A program made the position numbers and the translations under genes. The notes below the pieces were generated by a model. That model was not told the origin of the DNA and ran no database searches. It saw only the letters and a list, made by a program, of their open reading frames with translations. This document shows positions 39,532 to 45,017 of a stretch of 64,000 nucleotides of DNA, piece by piece. Positions within the stretch are counted from its first letter, which is position 1, and each line of letters starts with the position of its first letter. The DNA lies in the NCBI RefSeq assembly GCF_024623785.1, contig NZ_JANKBZ010000004.1, forward strand, positions 248,001 to 312,000. The letters are read 5' to 3'. This DNA comes from Archangium lipolyticum. GTDB taxonomy: Bacteria > Myxococcota > Myxococcia > Myxococcales > Myxococcaceae.

Positions 39532-41094
39532 CTAACCCTCGGGCAGGATGAGTAGACCTCTCGCCGTGTCAATCACATACAGGTACCCGTCCCCTGGCAC
39601 CCTCATCCCGATCGCCCCATCGTAGAAGCTCCCCCCTCTCCCCTCATCCGTCTCCCGGTACGTGTTGAAGTACCCCACCTCCCTCGGCTTCTCCGGCTCC
39701 GATACGTCCAACACCCTCACCCCGTGTTGGTAATGCGCGATGTACAGCCTCTCCCCCTTCAACACCATGTTGTGGATCGACGCGCTCGGCCCCAACTCGT
39801 ACTCGCCTATCCGGTGCGGATTCGTTGGCTCCGTCACGTCCAGCACCCTCAGGTGCGCCCCCCAGTTCTCCCCTCCCTCGAATGCAATGAGCCGCTCCCC
39901 GAACCTCCCCACCGCGTTCGCGTGGCTCGTCGCGTACGGATATGTGTACGTGCTCAGTTTCCTCGGCTGCTCCGGATCCCCCACGTCCACGATCAGGTAA
40001 CCCCCAGACCAATGGTTGATGTACAGCCTTCCCTCGTACGCCAACGCGTCGTGCGGATAGCCCACCTGCGCATTCGTCGTCGCCCCCGGCTCCGCGTACA
40101 TCCCCCTCAGCACCGGCGCCGTGGGCGTGCCGATATCGAAGATGAGCGTCTGTGGTTGCGGGCCCGGTGACATCGCGTACAGGCGATCCCCTTCCACGAA
40201 GACCGTATGCACGTCGATCCGGCCCCCCGGATAGCTCCGCAGCAATCGCGGCTCCTCCGGCTTCGAGATGTCGAAGACGATCACTCCCGAGCTCGCGCTC
40301 GCCACGTAGAGCGCGTTCCCCTTCGACCACACCCCGTTCCAGTAGTTGTCCGTCGGCAGGGCGATCGTCTTCTTCAGCACCGGCGCCCTCTTGTCGCTCA
40401 CGTCGAAGACCGTGAGCCCTCCACCCTCACCCCCATCCGGCACCGACACCACGTAGGCGTGCCCCTGCGTGACGTAGACGTCCACTGGCATCCCCTGGTC
40501 CACGAATGATTCGGATTCGAGCCGCAGCCCCGAGGCCTCCGCCTCCCCCGCGCGCCGCTCCCACTTCTCCGCCAGGAAGGTGCCCGAGACGGAGGGCCTG
40601 CCACCGCGGCAACTGACGAAGCAGCCGTACAGCCGGTTGCCCTCGGCCCGGCAGCCCACCAGTGAATCGCGCTGGGTCGACCTCACGCTCGACAGGAAGA
40701 AGCTCTCCGCGTCCACCCGCCGCTGCGTCGGCGTCATCCCTTGATAGGAATCGAGACTCCCGTCCGCCGACACACGGAAGGCGTCCGGGTCGATGCGCGG
40801 TAGCGGGGCGTCGATCCGGTACACCAGCGTGAAGACTCCGTCCCGTGGCAGGCCGCCCAGCGAGGCCCGGTCACACCCCGCCAGGTCGAAGGACTCGAAG
40901 TCCCCACACGCCGCACCGCTGGTGGACAGTCCGCAGGTGGCGTAGCGGCCCATGTCTTCCCAATCCCCCCGTGCATCGGTGGTGGTGGGAGACGGAGGAG
41001 GCGCCGGCTCCTCGGGACGGCAACCCGCCAGGCACAGTCCTCCCATGGTCAGGAGTGCACTCGCTCGGCTCATCCATCTCAGCAGTGTGAACAT
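39532..41094 (-). CDS. LVIVD-repeat lipoprotein
   Basis: A 520-residue protein from the ATG at 41094, with GAGGAG about 8 bases upstream. The lipoprotein signal ends LAGC (about Cys25). Seven to eight repeats of the LVIVD type form a propeller: GLTVFDVSDKRAPV, GVIVFDISKPEEPRLL, TLIFDIGTPTAPVL, YLIVDVGDPEQPRKL, LRVLDVTEPTNPHR, VRVLDVSEPEKPREV. A Cys-containing region precedes them (TCGLSTSGAACGDF, VGCRAEGNRLYGCFVSC). Such proteins are exposed on the outer or periplasmic surface and have no known enzymatic activity. It is divergent from the MYXO-CTERM operon; the shared promoter is only 83 bp. Confidence 0.82.
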   Translation of the reverse strand: MFTLLRWMSRASALLTMGGLCLAGCRPEEPAPPPSPTTTDARGDWEDMGRYATCGLSTSGAACGDFESFDLAGCDRASLGGLPRDGVFTLVYRIDAPLPRIDPDAFRVSADGSLDSYQGMTPTQRRVDAESFFLSSVRSTQRDSLVGCRAEGNRLYGCFVSCRGGRPSVSGTFLAEKWERRAGEAEASGLRLESESFVDQGMPVDVYVTQGHAYVVSVPDGGEGGGLTVFDVSDKRAPVLKKTIALPTDNYWNGVWSKGNALYVASASSGVIVFDISKPEEPRLLRSYPGGRIDVHTVFVEGDRLYAMSPGPQPQTLIFDIGTPTAPVLRGMYAEPGATTNAQVGYPHDALAYEGRLYINHWSGGYLIVDVGDPEQPRKLSTYTYPYATSHANAVGRFGERLIAFEGGENWGAHLRVLDVTEPTNPHRIGEYELGPSASIHNMVLKGERLYIAHYQHGVRVLDVSEPEKPREVGYFNTYRETDEGRGGSFYDGAIGMRVPGDGYLYVIDTARGLLILPEG

Positions 41095-41177: not shown

Positions 41178-42503
41178 ATGAGACTCCCGCTCTCCGTCCT
41201 CTGCTGGTTGGTGCTGGCTTCACTCGCGCTGCGTGCACCTCCCGCCCTCGCGCACGCGGGCCTCCCCGAGACCTCCAACGTCACCGTCCGCCGCGGCCAC
41301 CCCGAGGATCTCTTCGCTGGCGCCACCTTCGGCGCCGTGGTCTCCCGCGACAGCGGGAAGACCTGGCGGTGGATCTGCCCCGAGTCCATGCTCTACGGCG
41401 GCTGGCGCCCCGAGTCCTTCCTCTGGCAGGCCAATGGCGACCTGCTCGCCGCCACCGGCGCCTCCCTCATCCGCTCGCGCGACGGCGGCTGCACCTGGCA
41501 GGCCCACCCCTTCTTCTCCTCCAACAACCTGTGGCCCTCGGGCCTCGAGGCGCCTCCCTCCACTCCCTCGCGCCTCTGGGTGACGACGGCCCGCGCCTCC
41601 TCCCCCAATGGCCTCTTCCGCAGCGATGATGGTGGCGAGACGTTCACCGCCATCGACGCACTGCGGAGCACGACCCACGTCTACTCCTCCGTGAAGGTCG
41701 CTCCGTCCGACACGCGGCGCATCTACGTCTCCGCCGATACGCCCCAGGGACTGCGCATCTTCCGCAGCGACGACGAGGGCTCCACCTGGGAGGAGATTCC
41801 CCATCCCTTCCCGGAATACTCGGTCGACTCGCGGCCGTATGACCTGCTCGTCCTCCGGGTGGCGGAGAACGACCCGGACCACCTCTGGGCCCGCGTCACC
41901 GCCCAGGGCTGGACCTATCTGCTGGAGAGCAAGGACGGAGGCCACTCCTTCCAGTCCATCCTCCATCCCCCCAACCAGGAGCATGATGGTCTCGACGAGT
42001 ACCTCGTCGGCATCGAGGTCTCCGCCGACGGGCGCACCGTCTGGGCCGCCACGTACACCCGCTTCTTCCGCATCCGCGAGGGTGGGCCCACCACCCTCCT
42101 GTCACTCCCCGAGGGCAATGCCTGCGCGGACCGCCAGGGCGACACCCTCCTCGTCTGCGGCTCCACCTGGGTGCATGACTGGGCCCTGGCTCGCACCCGC
42201 GACGAGGGCGACACCTTCGAGCCCCTCTTCTCGCTCCCCCACATCCTGCCCCCCGCGTGCCCCGCCAGAACCCCCACCCAGGACATCTGCCGGCCCCGCT
42301 GGCCGCAGTTCGCCCCCTCCATCGGCGCGGACCCCACCCTGCCGCCAGAAGAGCCCGTCACGGTGGAGCCCGGAACGCCGGAGCCTCCCCCCAAGAAGGG
42401 CGGGTGCTCGTCCGCCGGGGGACTCGTGCCCGCCGCATGCCTCCTCACCCTCACCCCGCTCCTCCGCTCGCGACGGCGCGATCCGGAGTCCTCACGGAGA
42501 TGA
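41178..42503 (+). CDS. exported BNR/sialidase-type propeller with MYXO-CTERM tail
   Basis: A 441-residue protein from the ATG at 41178 (GGAG 8 bases upstream; an in-frame GTG at 41169 lacks the spacing). A Sec signal precedes Asp-box-like repeats (SRDSGKTWRW, SRDGGCTWQA, SDDGGETFTA, SDDEGSTWEE, SKDGGHSFQS), the pattern of BNR propellers. The C-terminus is a Pro/Glu linker, then GGCSSAGGLVPAACLLTLTPLLRSRRR: a Cys, a hydrophobic helix and an Arg cluster, the MYXO-CTERM sorting signal processed by myxosortase to yield a surface protein. It is the first gene of a four-gene operon. The role is unknown; no sialidase catalytic residues were sought beyond the Asp-boxes. Confidence 0.82.
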   Translation: MRLPLSVLCWLVLASLALRAPPALAHAGLPETSNVTVRRGHPEDLFAGATFGAVVSRDSGKTWRWICPESMLYGGWRPESFLWQANGDLLAATGASLIRSRDGGCTWQAHPFFSSNNLWPSGLEAPPSTPSRLWVTTARASSPNGLFRSDDGGETFTAIDALRSTTHVYSSVKVAPSDTRRIYVSADTPQGLRIFRSDDEGSTWEEIPHPFPEYSVDSRPYDLLVLRVAENDPDHLWARVTAQGWTYLLESKDGGHSFQSILHPPNQEHDGLDEYLVGIEVSADGRTVWAATYTRFFRIREGGPTTLLSLPEGNACADRQGDTLLVCGSTWVHDWALARTRDEGDTFEPLFSLPHILPPACPARTPTQDICRPRWPQFAPSIGADPTLPPEEPVTVEPGTPEPPPKKGGCSSAGGLVPAACLLTLTPLLRSRRRDPESSRR

Positions 42504-42505
42504 AC

Positions 42506-43099
42506 ATGAGACACCCGAGCACCGCCTGCATCACCGCCCTGGCCCTCACCCTCTCCGCCTGCGACCCGGAGACCTCCGAGTCCGAGTGCGGTGAGCCCCT
42601 CTACGCCGGCAAGGCCACCGACGAGGCCTGGCGCGCCATGGTGGACGCGCGCAAGAAGCCCCGCGACTCCTCCAGGGCCGTCACCCTCCACTCCCCCACC
42701 GAGGGCGAGGTGTACTCGGCCGACGCCACTCCGCCCGTCTGGCAATGGAGCTCCCTGAGCGCCTCGCTCTTCCGTCCCCAACCCCCCCGCGCTCCCCGTT
42801 CCCTCGCCTCGTGGTTGGGCGAGCTGCTCGTCCCCTCCGCCCACGCGCACCTGCCTCCCTACACGGGGGACCTCTACTGGGTGGAGGTCTCCACCCCCGG
42901 CGGCAAGTGCCCCGTGGTCCAGGTGCTGACCTCGGAAGTGTCTTGGCAGCTCGACGCCAACTCCTGGGCCGAGCTGGGCAAGAACGCGGGCAAGGACCTC
43001 ACCGTGCAGGTGACGAGCGCCCACCTCCTGCAGAACACCGTCACCGAAGGCCCCTACTCGCTCGCCACGCCCCGCACCTTCCGCAGGGGTGCGCCATGA
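42506..43099 (+). CDS. lipoprotein, middle gene of the exported operon
   Basis: A 197-residue product. The ATG at 42506 has GGAG 6 bases upstream; an ATG at 42500 overlaps the previous stop (ATGA) and is the alternative. The lipoprotein signal ends LSAC. The mature part is about 170 residues with two early cysteines (CDPETSESECGEPLYAGKATDEAW), a His-Ala-His (PSAHAHLPPY) motif near the middle and strands TGDLYWVEVSTPGGKCPVVQVLTSEVSW. The HAHLP segment could bind metal, but no known family is recognised. It overlaps the next gene by ATGA. Confidence 0.7.
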   Translation: MRHPSTACITALALTLSACDPETSESECGEPLYAGKATDEAWRAMVDARKKPRDSSRAVTLHSPTEGEVYSADATPPVWQWSSLSASLFRPQPPRAPRSLASWLGELLVPSAHAHLPPYTGDLYWVEVSTPGGKCPVVQVLTSEVSWQLDANSWAELGKNAGKDLTVQVTSAHLLQNTVTEGPYSLATPRTFRRGAP

Positions 43100-44325
43100 G
43101 GCTCCTCGTGCCCGCCCTGCTCGCGCCACTCGCGCTCGGAGCCTGCTCCAACGACAAGGTGCCGGAGCTCGACTACTCCATCGACTCCCCCTGGCCCTCT
43201 GCGCGGGAGCTGCCCCCGCTCGGGAGCGGGCGCATCGTCGTCACCAACAGCATGGACGACACCGTGAGCCTGCTCGACCTGGACTCGTTGGGCTCGCCGG
43301 GCTGGGGAGAGCTCGCCCGCGTCCCCGTGGGGCTCAACCCCGTGGAGTTGGAAGGCCCCCACCACGCCGCCTTCTCGCCACGCGGGGACTTCTACTATGT
43401 GGGCCTCTCCTACTCCGTGCCTGGCGCCGGCTCCGGCCCTCACGGGGCGCACGGCACCGGCACCGCCGACGGCTACTGCCTCAAGCTGGACGCGAAGGAC
43501 AACCACCTCGTGGGCTCGGTGCGCGTGGACCGCAACCCGGGCGACCTCATCGCCAGCGCCGACGGCCGCACGCTCTTCCAGACCCACTTCGACCTGCTGA
43601 GGATCACCGACGTGGCGCGCCGTGGCGGGCCCGAGAGCGACATGGACGCGCGGCTGGCCATCCTCGACGCGGACACGATGACACGCAGGGCGATGGTCAC
43701 GGTGTGCCCCGCTCCCCACGCGGTGCGCCTCTCCCCGGACGAGAAGCGGGCCTATGTCACCTGCATCTCGGACGAGGTGGCCGTGGTGCAACTGGACGCC
43801 GAGGGCTACCCCGTCACCCGCCTCAAGGTGGCCACCAACGCGGGCACCGCCGTGGCGCCCCGGCACGAGCCCTATGCGCTCACCGTGTCGCCCATCGATG
43901 GCTCGGTCTGGGTGAGCTCGCTCACGAGCGGCGTCGTGCAGGTCCTGGACCCGGAGTCGCTGACCATGCGTCCCGAGCGCGCCGTACACGTGGCTCACAG
44001 TGGCTCGCCCATGTTCGGCGCCTTCAGCACGGACGGCCGCACGCTCTACATGCCCTACAGCAAGCAGGACGTGGTGGCAGTCATCGACACGGCCGTCACC
44101 CCGCCCGTGGTGACCCGGGAGATTCCGCTCGCGCCCTCCGGCTGCGTCAACGCACATCAGGTGACGCTGACGCCAGATGGCCAGCACGGGCTCGTGGTGT
44201 GCGAGGGTGGCCACCAGGGCCCGGGCACACTGCATGTGCTCGACCTGGCGGCGGGCACGGTGACGAAGACCGTGACGCTGGGAATCTATCCGGACTCGGT
44301 GGGCATCCTGCGGGGGTCGCCATGA
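43096..44325 (+). CDS. YVTN-type beta-propeller lipoprotein
   Basis: A 409-residue lipoprotein (signal ending LGAC). It contains propeller blades typical of YVTN/cytochrome-cd1-like proteins: GRIVVTNSMDDTVSLLDLDSL, HHAAFSPRGDFYYVGLSYS, PHAVRLSPDEKRAYVTCISDEVAVVQLD, TVSPIDGSVWVSSLTSGVVQVLDPESL, GAFSTDGRTLYMPYSKQDVVAVID. No haem ligands are evident, so it is more likely a binding or scaffold partner of the following cytochrome. The ATG overlaps the preceding stop and its stop overlaps the cytochrome start. Confidence 0.82.
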   Translation: MRLLVPALLAPLALGACSNDKVPELDYSIDSPWPSARELPPLGSGRIVVTNSMDDTVSLLDLDSLGSPGWGELARVPVGLNPVELEGPHHAAFSPRGDFYYVGLSYSVPGAGSGPHGAHGTGTADGYCLKLDAKDNHLVGSVRVDRNPGDLIASADGRTLFQTHFDLLRITDVARRGGPESDMDARLAILDADTMTRRAMVTVCPAPHAVRLSPDEKRAYVTCISDEVAVVQLDAEGYPVTRLKVATNAGTAVAPRHEPYALTVSPIDGSVWVSSLTSGVVQVLDPESLTMRPERAVHVAHSGSPMFGAFSTDGRTLYMPYSKQDVVAVIDTAVTPPVVTREIPLAPSGCVNAHQVTLTPDGQHGLVVCEGGHQGPGTLHVLDLAAGTVTKTVTLGIYPDSVGILRGSP

Positions 44326-45017
44326 GGTGGCCGTGGCTGGGAGCGGTGCTGCTCGCGGTGGGCTGTGGCCCCGTGCCCGCGGCGGAATACGGCGAGGAGC
44401 TCTTCAGCGACCCGAAGCTGTCGGGCAGCCAATACAACACCTTCTCGTGCGCCACGTGCCACGCGACGACCGCCACTCCCCCGAAGGACGAGGTGTACGC
44501 GGGACTGTCCCTCTATAATGTGGCGTCCCGCCCCCACTGGTGGGGCGGCTACGAGACGCGCCTGCTGGACGCGGTGAACTTCTGCTACACGGCCTTCATG
44601 CGCGGCGTCACCCCGCTCGCGCCGGACGACCCGAGGAGCCGCGCCCTCTACGAGTATCTGGTCCGCATCAGCCCGGACGAGACCGCGCCCGCCCAGCCCT
44701 TCACCCTCATCAAGGACATCACCGACGTGCCGCGAGGCAACGCCAGGCGGGGCGCCGACGTCTACGAGGCCGCCTGTCGGGAATGCCACGGTGAGGCGCA
44801 CACCGGGAAGGGCCGGCTGACACAGCTCGCGCCCGTGCTCCCCGAGGTCTCCCAGGAGTACGGCTCCCTCTTCCCTGGCGTGGCTCCCGGTCTCATCTTC
44901 ATCGAGAAGGTCCGGCATGGCCGCTTCTTCGGCGTGGGGGGAAACATGCCGCCGTACAGCCGCGAATCCCTGTCCGATGAGGACCTGGGAGCACTGCTCA
45001 CCCATCTCGGCCTCTAG
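44322..45017 (+). CDS. di-haem cytochrome c lipoprotein
   Basis: A 231-residue protein with lipoprotein signal ending AVGC (Cys15). Two haem-binding motifs are clear: CATCH (43-47) and CRECH (152-156), each in a cytochrome-c-like domain with distal methionines possible (GGNMPPYS at the C-terminal end). It belongs to the exported di-haem cytochrome class that passes electrons between periplasmic partners or to a terminal acceptor. It is the last gene of the coupled operon and would give the propeller proteins a redox function. The redox partner is unknown. Confidence 0.85.
   Translation: MRWPWLGAVLLAVGCGPVPAAEYGEELFSDPKLSGSQYNTFSCATCHATTATPPKDEVYAGLSLYNVASRPHWWGGYETRLLDAVNFCYTAFMRGVTPLAPDDPRSRALYEYLVRISPDETAPAQPFTLIKDITDVPRGNARRGADVYEAACRECHGEAHTGKGRLTQLAPVLPEVSQEYGSLFPGVAPGLIFIEKVRHGRFFGVGGNMPPYSRESLSDEDLGALLTHLGL

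Follow-up and report, generated by a model that had tools for sequence, protein, structure and literature searches.

What might four tightly coupled genes for exported proteins, one of them a two-haem cytochrome c, accomplish together in the envelope of a myxobacterium? The question is raised by a locus of Archangium lipolyticum (contig NZ_JANKBZ010000004.1 of assembly GCF_024623785.1), within a stretch of 64,000 nucleotides (positions 248,001 to 312,000 of the forward strand), here called the window, to which all coordinates refer unless another locus is named. An original prediction, made from the letters of the window, took the four products to look like one extracytoplasmic redox or binding complex that could not be matched to a described system. 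Four consecutive plus-strand open reading frames, termed A to D, were re-found where it had placed them:

41178..42503, plus strand: gene A, 441 amino acids; BNR/Asp-box propeller protein with a Sec signal peptide and a MYXO-CTERM surface anchor.
42500..43099, plus strand: gene B, 199 amino acids; small lipoprotein with a conserved A-H-L-P-P-x-T-G segment, family unassigned.
43096..44325, plus strand: gene C, 409 amino acids; seven-bladed beta-propeller lipoprotein, candidate metal-dependent subunit.
44322..45017, plus strand: gene D, 231 amino acids; di-haem cytochrome c lipoprotein of TsdA/SoxA type.

The reading that we favour, tentatively and at somewhat less than an even chance, is an envelope redox module in which C would oxidise a small molecule at a metal centre, D would take up the electrons, and A and B would be accessory.

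The tight coupling of the genes was borne out. ATGA overlaps of four bases were read at the B-C and C-D junctions; the A-B junction is also an ATGA overlap when B starts at 42500, and a 2-base gap when the alternative ATG at 42506 is used, which accounts for the 2-bp gap noted originally. Across loci, with gaps measured by a home-made gene caller, neighbours lay within 30 bases in 37 of 39 cases for A-B, 47 of 50 for B-C and 54 of 58 for C-D, and the junction was exactly −4 in 15, 40 and 45 of these neighbours, respectively. Since the same junctions recur across loci, they are not due to chance. A promoter and terminator scan of the locus found nothing, such a scan being uninformative for this genome.

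The gene content was kept across the Myxococcaceae and several other families. Among 145 genomes of the order, some match to D was found in 92 and to B in 71; with a strong D match defined as E below 1e-48, strong D was present in 71 genomes, B in 71 and both in 70. Of the 70 genomes with both, 67 had B and D on the same strand no more than 6 kb apart and three had them on different contigs. C was detected in 80 of 195 Myxococcota genomes (E up to 1e-25) and in 44 named loci of a species-level collection, 39 of them labelled as Myxococcota taxa and the remaining five as Proteobacteria, Deltaproteobacteria (two), Betaproteobacteria and Comamonas. In the A. lipolyticum genome itself D is single copy and C has one weak second match only. 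Of the 73 distinct C proteins, 37 were encoded in the order A-B-C-D and 10 in the order B-C-D; the other C loci were partial (often at contig ends), without A or B, or rearranged. A was the least faithful member, absent from several loci, and B was absent from a few.

Remote loci keep the parts in shuffled order. The order was A-C-B-D in L136 and L137, B-D-C-A in L139 and C-D-B in L130, and in L133 and L135 C lay on the strand opposite to B, D and two further genes between them. The additional genes of these loci are:

L137 11413-11856 and L136 3039-3488: Rieske [2Fe-2S] protein directly behind D.
L133 2593-3883 and L135 10723-12016: barrel-like envelope protein and Cys-rich lipoprotein between B and D.

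The barrel-like protein of L135 has the mature start CASCGCGD, and neither it nor the Cys-rich protein of that locus found a match in a Pfam search. In family f29 (four species) B lies ahead of C in three loci and C and D overlap by four bases in three, while L162, the remaining locus, has D called at a distance of 245 bases from C and with a shortened start. Content that is kept through changes of order is stronger evidence of joint function than operon conservation alone.

Several further variants were observed among the loci. Genus g6 (L065 10259-12099, L066) carries an AHH-nuclease toxin-like gene and a probable immunity gene directly after B; the insertion separates B from C and breaks the operon, with B, C and D all retained. 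Second copies in genus g5 (L074 5959-10204, L093) consist of A-C-D without B and lie behind a large gene resembling, by eye, a polyketide synthase/non-ribosomal peptide synthetase gene, and behind a gene for a 307-amino-acid lipoprotein containing GHFDLHFF, for which a Pfam search gave no hits. L165 is a decayed copy in genome G153, with C in pieces and the haem-1 motif of D damaged. A complete A-B-C-D set is present in L128, deposited as Comamonas sp. KCTC 72670, with a C protein 65% identical to that of the window; this organism label is probably wrong. A phage or plasmid origin of the genes was rejected, as viral contigs held no relative of D and the propellers found on plasmids were only partial matches, 28-31% identical.

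The propeller nature of C was confirmed by an AlphaFold2 model based on 24 orthologues (predicted local distance difference test score, pLDDT, 87; predicted template modelling score, pTM, 0.85), which is seven-bladed, and by its structural matches. Among the matches listed, as for all structural-alignment Z figures given here for C and D, were the YVTN S-layer protein 1l0q (Z 39.2), 6-phosphogluconolactonase (36.6), nitrous-oxide reductase (NosZ; up to 36.0) and thiocyanate dehydrogenase (TcDH; 33.7). Metal-free and copper propellers both match C highly, and the fold alone therefore says nothing on function. The conserved residues are more telling about what C may bind. In the main C family of 66-68 proteins, which extends down to 35% identity with the window protein, and from which the decayed L165 copy and four f6 copies were counted apart, the following histidines stand out:

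43360..43365, plus strand: His89-His90 (HH motif), 68/68 each.
43441..43452, plus strand: His116-x-x-His119 (HxxH in a Gly-rich loop), 68/68 each.
43585..43587, plus strand: His164, 68/68.
43717..43719, plus strand: His208, beside the likely disulfide Cys204-Cys223, 68/68.
44155..44157, plus strand: His354, beside the likely disulfide Cys350-Cys369, 66/66.
44212..44214, plus strand: His373, mostly conserved, 56/66.

E86, D166, E370, D400, Y260 and three of the four Cys are likewise fully invariant, and Cys204 is present in 67 of 68 proteins. Half of the His in the window protein (7 of 14) are invariant, as against 41 of 387 residues overall. According to the strand map of the model, the inner strands of the blades start at about residues 399, 88, 148, 207, 259, 305 and 353. 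H89/H90, H208 and H354 coincide with these starts or adjoin them, H164 and H373 mark the ends of second strands or follow them immediately, and H116/H119 belong to a loop after a second strand; residues 108-116 of that region are modelled with pLDDT under 50. On this map the conserved His would all be located at one face of the propeller, where they probably form a metal site. In the divergent f6 copies (L157, L158, L159 and L160; 31-35% identity) H90, H116 and H119 are replaced by E, E and M, and H164 by Cys in three of the four.

Known propeller enzymes provide several partial parallels to C. Hydrazine synthase beta/gamma likewise pairs a propeller with a di-haem cytochrome; its beta model matched C at 6.8e-12 but reached only 45 of the 560 bits cut-off, and the gamma fold matched D at Z 7.4, D being nearer to TsdA. 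With NosZ and clade III L-NosZ, C shares the propeller fold and a weak local sequence match. Weak local profile alignments placed C His208 on the His of the NosZ SPHG/NPHG motif, whereas the ends of the structural alignments imply another register. Unlike NosZ, C has no CuA domain and in the model ends after the last propeller strand, and it scored 19.2 of 700 bits with the L-NosZ model, the classical NosZ model not being listed at E up to 1. Pfam and NCBIfam models for the SBP56/SELENBP1/MtoX family, of which SBP56 is presumably a Pfam entry, did not match C at E up to 1, so that C falls outside this family too.

The SBP56-type proteins resemble C in the combination of HH (H89-H90 in C) and HxxH (H116-H119) in a seven-bladed propeller. 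In human SELENBP1, HH73/74, HxxH137/140, D189 and E252 are described as needed for copper-dependent thiol oxidation (excerpts of PMC10362175), the spacing from HH to HxxH being 64 there and 27 in C. For MtoX, H89, H90, H140 and H412 have been proposed as the residues used, and SCO1 and MauG genes are found in its operons (excerpts of PMC5739008); the di-haem MauG homologues recall D, whereas an SCO1 gene is absent from the operon studied here. TcDH, a propeller of seven blades, has three copper ions in its central tunnel and uses cytochrome c as acceptor, and the reduction of cytochrome c by propeller dehydrogenases is established (excerpts of PMC9456337). The active site of TcDH includes K103, H135, H136, Q156, H206, E288, D314, H381, H437, H482, H528, D529 and R544 (excerpts of PMC6504805). 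C would resemble TcDH in fold, HH pair, His-rich channel and cytochrome c partner. It differs in the extra HxxH loop and in that only part of the seven His positions of TcDH are His in C; the HH pair is present, and the other positions were judged from structural-alignment ends only. By these ends several inner-strand His positions of NosZ/TcDH correspond to D150, Y260, M306 and D400 in C, and no sequence match between C and TcDH was found at E up to 0.1. Because of the failed family models and the differing NosZ/TcDH His positions, we read C as a candidate metal propeller outside the NosZ, TcDH and MtoX/SBP56 families, with a ligand set that would be particular to it.

That D is a two-haem cytochrome c, as predicted originally, was confirmed by its two CXXCH motifs, and its ligands can be predicted with reference to TsdA:

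44448..44462, plus strand: haem 1 site C43-A-T-C-H47, in 56/56 distinct D proteins having that column.
44583..44585, plus strand: Cys88, predicted haem 1 sulfur ligand, 58/58; aligned with TsdA Cys96 and PaCCP Met275.
44775..44789, plus strand: haem 2 site C152-R-E-C-H156, 60/60.
44946..44948, plus strand: Met209, probable second haem 2 ligand, 58/58.

When the set was widened to 64 D proteins, the sole failure of the joint pattern was a protein in which Cys88 remains and a Cys of the haem-1 motif is gone. A profile built from nine, mostly divergent, D proteins matched TsdA (4wq7/4wqc) at E 2e-5 across both haems (profile positions 6-126), with D Cys88 on TsdA chain index 96 and the haem-1 His47 on 53. 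The nine best Foldseek matches of the D model were all TsdA entries, and VIA-align gave Z 9.4 for TsdA, 9.0 for SoxA and 7.4 for the next. A first-domain profile of D aligned its N-terminus with bacterial cytochrome c peroxidases (CCP; PaCCP 2.2e-6), Cys88 falling on PaCCP Met275, an axial ligand in that enzyme. The Pfam CCP_MauG match (7.5e-7) covered only about 30-31 N-terminal residues and the MbnH model yielded 15.2 of 362.85 bits, which together with the Cys at the Met275 position places D outside the CCP/MauG/MbnH proteins. D was also well below the NCBIfam SoxA cut-off (15.2 bits vs 110), with a weak alignment of its VNFCYTAFMRG to the SoxA segment VNACVTERMG (E 0.36).

The catalytic haem of TsdA is ligated by His53/Cys96, of which Cys96 is essential, and TsdA Met209 and CjTsdA Met255 are precedents for a Met ligand at haem 2 (excerpts of PMC6879331); Met209 of the window D is preceded by Asn, as in C. 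jejuni TsdA. From the alignments D is a two-haem relative of TsdA, with homology over both domains, and its haem 1 is predicted from aligned position to be His/Cys-ligated in the same manner. D differs from TsdA in being a lipoprotein encoded in a propeller operon and in the residue at the position of Arg119, described as a substrate arginine of TsdA (excerpts of PMC6879331). This residue (precursor numbering; chain index 92, by an offset of 27 taken from the 4v2k and 4wqc ranges) aligned without gaps to Ala84 of D, and a second substrate residue, Arg109 (chain index 82), fell in a gap of the alignment. With Ala84 at this position the thiosulfate site is not kept and thiosulfate oxidation is unlikely, so that D is probably not a simple thiosulfate dehydrogenase.

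As a separate observation, in four loci (L089-L092) an N-terminal domain, presumably YceI-like, is fused to a TsdA-like di-haem domain in which the Cys position is retained; in L090 the fusion shares its operon, judged by eye, with genes for a truncated-haemoglobin-like protein and a Ser/Thr kinase.

Features that bear on the export of the proteins, and conserved residues of A and B, are:

42405..42503, plus strand: MYXO-CTERM tail of A from Cys410, with a Cys, a hydrophobic helix and an Arg-rich end (KKGGC410...LLRSRRR).
41253..41255, plus strand: His26 of A, predicted first mature residue in AxA|H; AxAH in 39/48 distinct A proteins.
42848..42850, plus strand: His117 of B, the conserved His of the HAHLP segment in the B alignments.

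Lipobox-like leaders were read by eye in B (LSAC21), C (LGAC17) and D (AVGC15), C17 being present in all 59 C proteins having that column, and the lipobox Cys marks all three as predicted type II lipoproteins. A matched Pfam BNR at 4.5e-10 and NCBIfam F510_1955 at 6.8e-22, the latter under the cut-off of that model. Its Cys410 is invariant in the A alignment, and the BNR match and the Cys/hydrophobic/Arg-rich end together bear out the earlier description as a BNR protein with a MYXO-CTERM tail. The tripartite architecture of MYXO-CTERM proteins (invariant Cys, transmembrane stretch and Arg-rich end) is given in excerpts of PMC11980579; A fits it, and a surface location is predicted. Apart from the 39 A proteins with AxAH, four have His at the mature start with an imperfect AxA and five lack the His, two of these being truncated calls. 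The gene that overlaps D by four bases in L079 encodes a protein other than A, which has a Cys motif of MYXO-CTERM-like kind and a predicted mature start at His. As to B, the lipoprotein leader of the original description stood, but of the HAHLP motif only the second His was conserved, in a core [AMS]-H-[LICG]..[ST] shared by 57 of 58 distinct B proteins. Pfam and NCBIfam models gave no match to B at E up to 1 and PDB sequences no significant one, so by sequence B remains without any recognised relative. A second cleavage site at AxAH in B was rejected, as the remote B proteins of L133 and L139 have TMH and TSH instead.

Next to the operon a propeller lipoprotein of the LVIVD/choice_anch_B type is encoded in divergent orientation (window 39532-41094, minus strand). 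It adjoins the operon in several related genera, and an LVIVD protein is also located beside A in L137.

The envelope redox module may be depicted as follows, as a dehydrogenase that would face the surface or the periplasm. B, C and D would be held in the envelope as lipoproteins, and the MYXO-CTERM tag of A would bring this protein to the cell surface via myxosortase and the type II system (as described in excerpts of PMC11980579). C would be the substrate-converting subunit, with a metal centre, most likely of copper, at the mouth of the central channel, where ligands would come from the inner strands (HH 89/90, His208 and His354), from the strands next to them (His164 and in most cases His373) and from the HxxH 116/119 loop. 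The compound oxidised would be small, for instance a thiol or some other reduced compound of sulfur or nitrogen. D, with its predicted His/Cys haem 1 and His/Met haem 2, would receive the electrons from C and hand them on to the respiratory chain or further cytochromes. Accessory, docking or surface-binding roles might fall to B and A. A sulfur-containing substrate is perhaps the most natural guess, drawn by analogy from the nearest analogues of C (MtoX, TcDH) and D (TsdA, SoxA), which act on sulfur compounds. In two f6 loci the divergent C has a di-haem cytochrome beside it that differs in type from D and lacks the Cys ligand; the joint loss of C His and D-type Cys ligand suggests that the two sites are coupled, two loci being few.

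A number of observations weigh against this module. The high Z scores of C to NosZ and TcDH are shared with the metal-free 1l0q and 6-phosphogluconolactonase, the placement of the C His at one face rests on the strand map rather than on computed distances, and its ligand set would differ from that of NosZ/TcDH. The f6 copies, by their sequences, manage without HH and HxxH. For D, the model was moderate (pLDDT 71, pTM 0.53) and Ala84 stands at the position of a TsdA substrate arginine. A copper chaperone gene is absent from the operon. In a rival explanation C would be a non-catalytic scaffold or sensor and D the sole redox centre. The C His would then bind a structural or transported metal, for example copper or zinc being taken up at the outer membrane, and D would alter the redox state of that metal. 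The S-layer YVTN propeller, which has no known active site, is the protein that C matches best in fold and sequence, and a hand-over of metal between envelope proteins is compatible with the conserved His at the mature N-terminus of A and the one in B. A scaffold would not need seven or eight conserved His together with acidic residues on one face, however, and the conserved operon includes no recognisable metal transporter or regulator, and we regard this explanation as unlikely.

A somewhat less likely proposal is that the His/Cys haem of D is where a sulfur compound is converted, in the manner of TsdA/SoxA, and that C, B and A only bind or present the substrate. D is homologous to these enzymes and keeps the catalytic Cys, essential as Cys96 in TsdA (excerpts of PMC6879331), but its Ala84 replaces the substrate arginine at chain position 92, and the large invariant polar set of C weighs against catalysis by D only. 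We consider it slightly less probable still that D is a maturation enzyme resembling MauG/MbnH, building a protein-derived cofactor in B or C, the mature partner being an enzyme or a metal carrier. Such a role would agree with the match of about 30 N-terminal residues to CCP/MauG models and with the MauG homologues encoded beside MtoX propellers (excerpts of PMC5739008); it agrees poorly with the Cys that all D proteins have at the axial Met position of CCP, with the whole-length match to TsdA, whose haem 1 has a bound Cys and not an open peroxidase site, and with a length of 231 amino acids vs 300 or more in CCP/MauG. It is very improbable that A to D are surface proteins linked by co-expression and by no common biochemical function. 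Myxobacterial genomes do carry dozens of MYXO-CTERM proteins (excerpts of PMC11980579), and several loci do without A and a few without B, but B, C and D stay together despite shuffled orders and changes of strand. Of the single complex predicted originally, an exported functional module with a redox part is thus upheld by the conserved linkage and the shuffled loci, while a physical complex is only predicted.

The literature searches on the operon found no described equivalent of the four genes as a whole, in agreement with the original prediction, but its parts can be placed, D with the TsdA/SoxA type and C with His-bearing propellers, and so lie closer to known chemistry than was first judged, the combination being the part without described equivalent. 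A bolder and rather doubtful version of the envelope redox module would make C a new class of metal, probably copper, propeller oxidoreductase wired to a new His/Cys-haem subfamily without thiosulfate binding, the two sites having changed together in f6. If true, the candidate site of C would comprise seven to eight His (HH, HxxH, His164, His208, His354 and mostly His373), and social, mostly predatory soil-dwelling myxobacteria would possess a cell-surface dehydrogenase for an unrecognised substrate. Haems with His/Cys ligation are rare, as are His-rich copper propellers, and the known cases perform unusual reactions, namely thiosulfate coupling, thiocyanate and methanethiol oxidation and N2O reduction. 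An operon that joins both types, with C in 80 of 195 Myxococcota genomes, is a concrete candidate for a new envelope metabolism.

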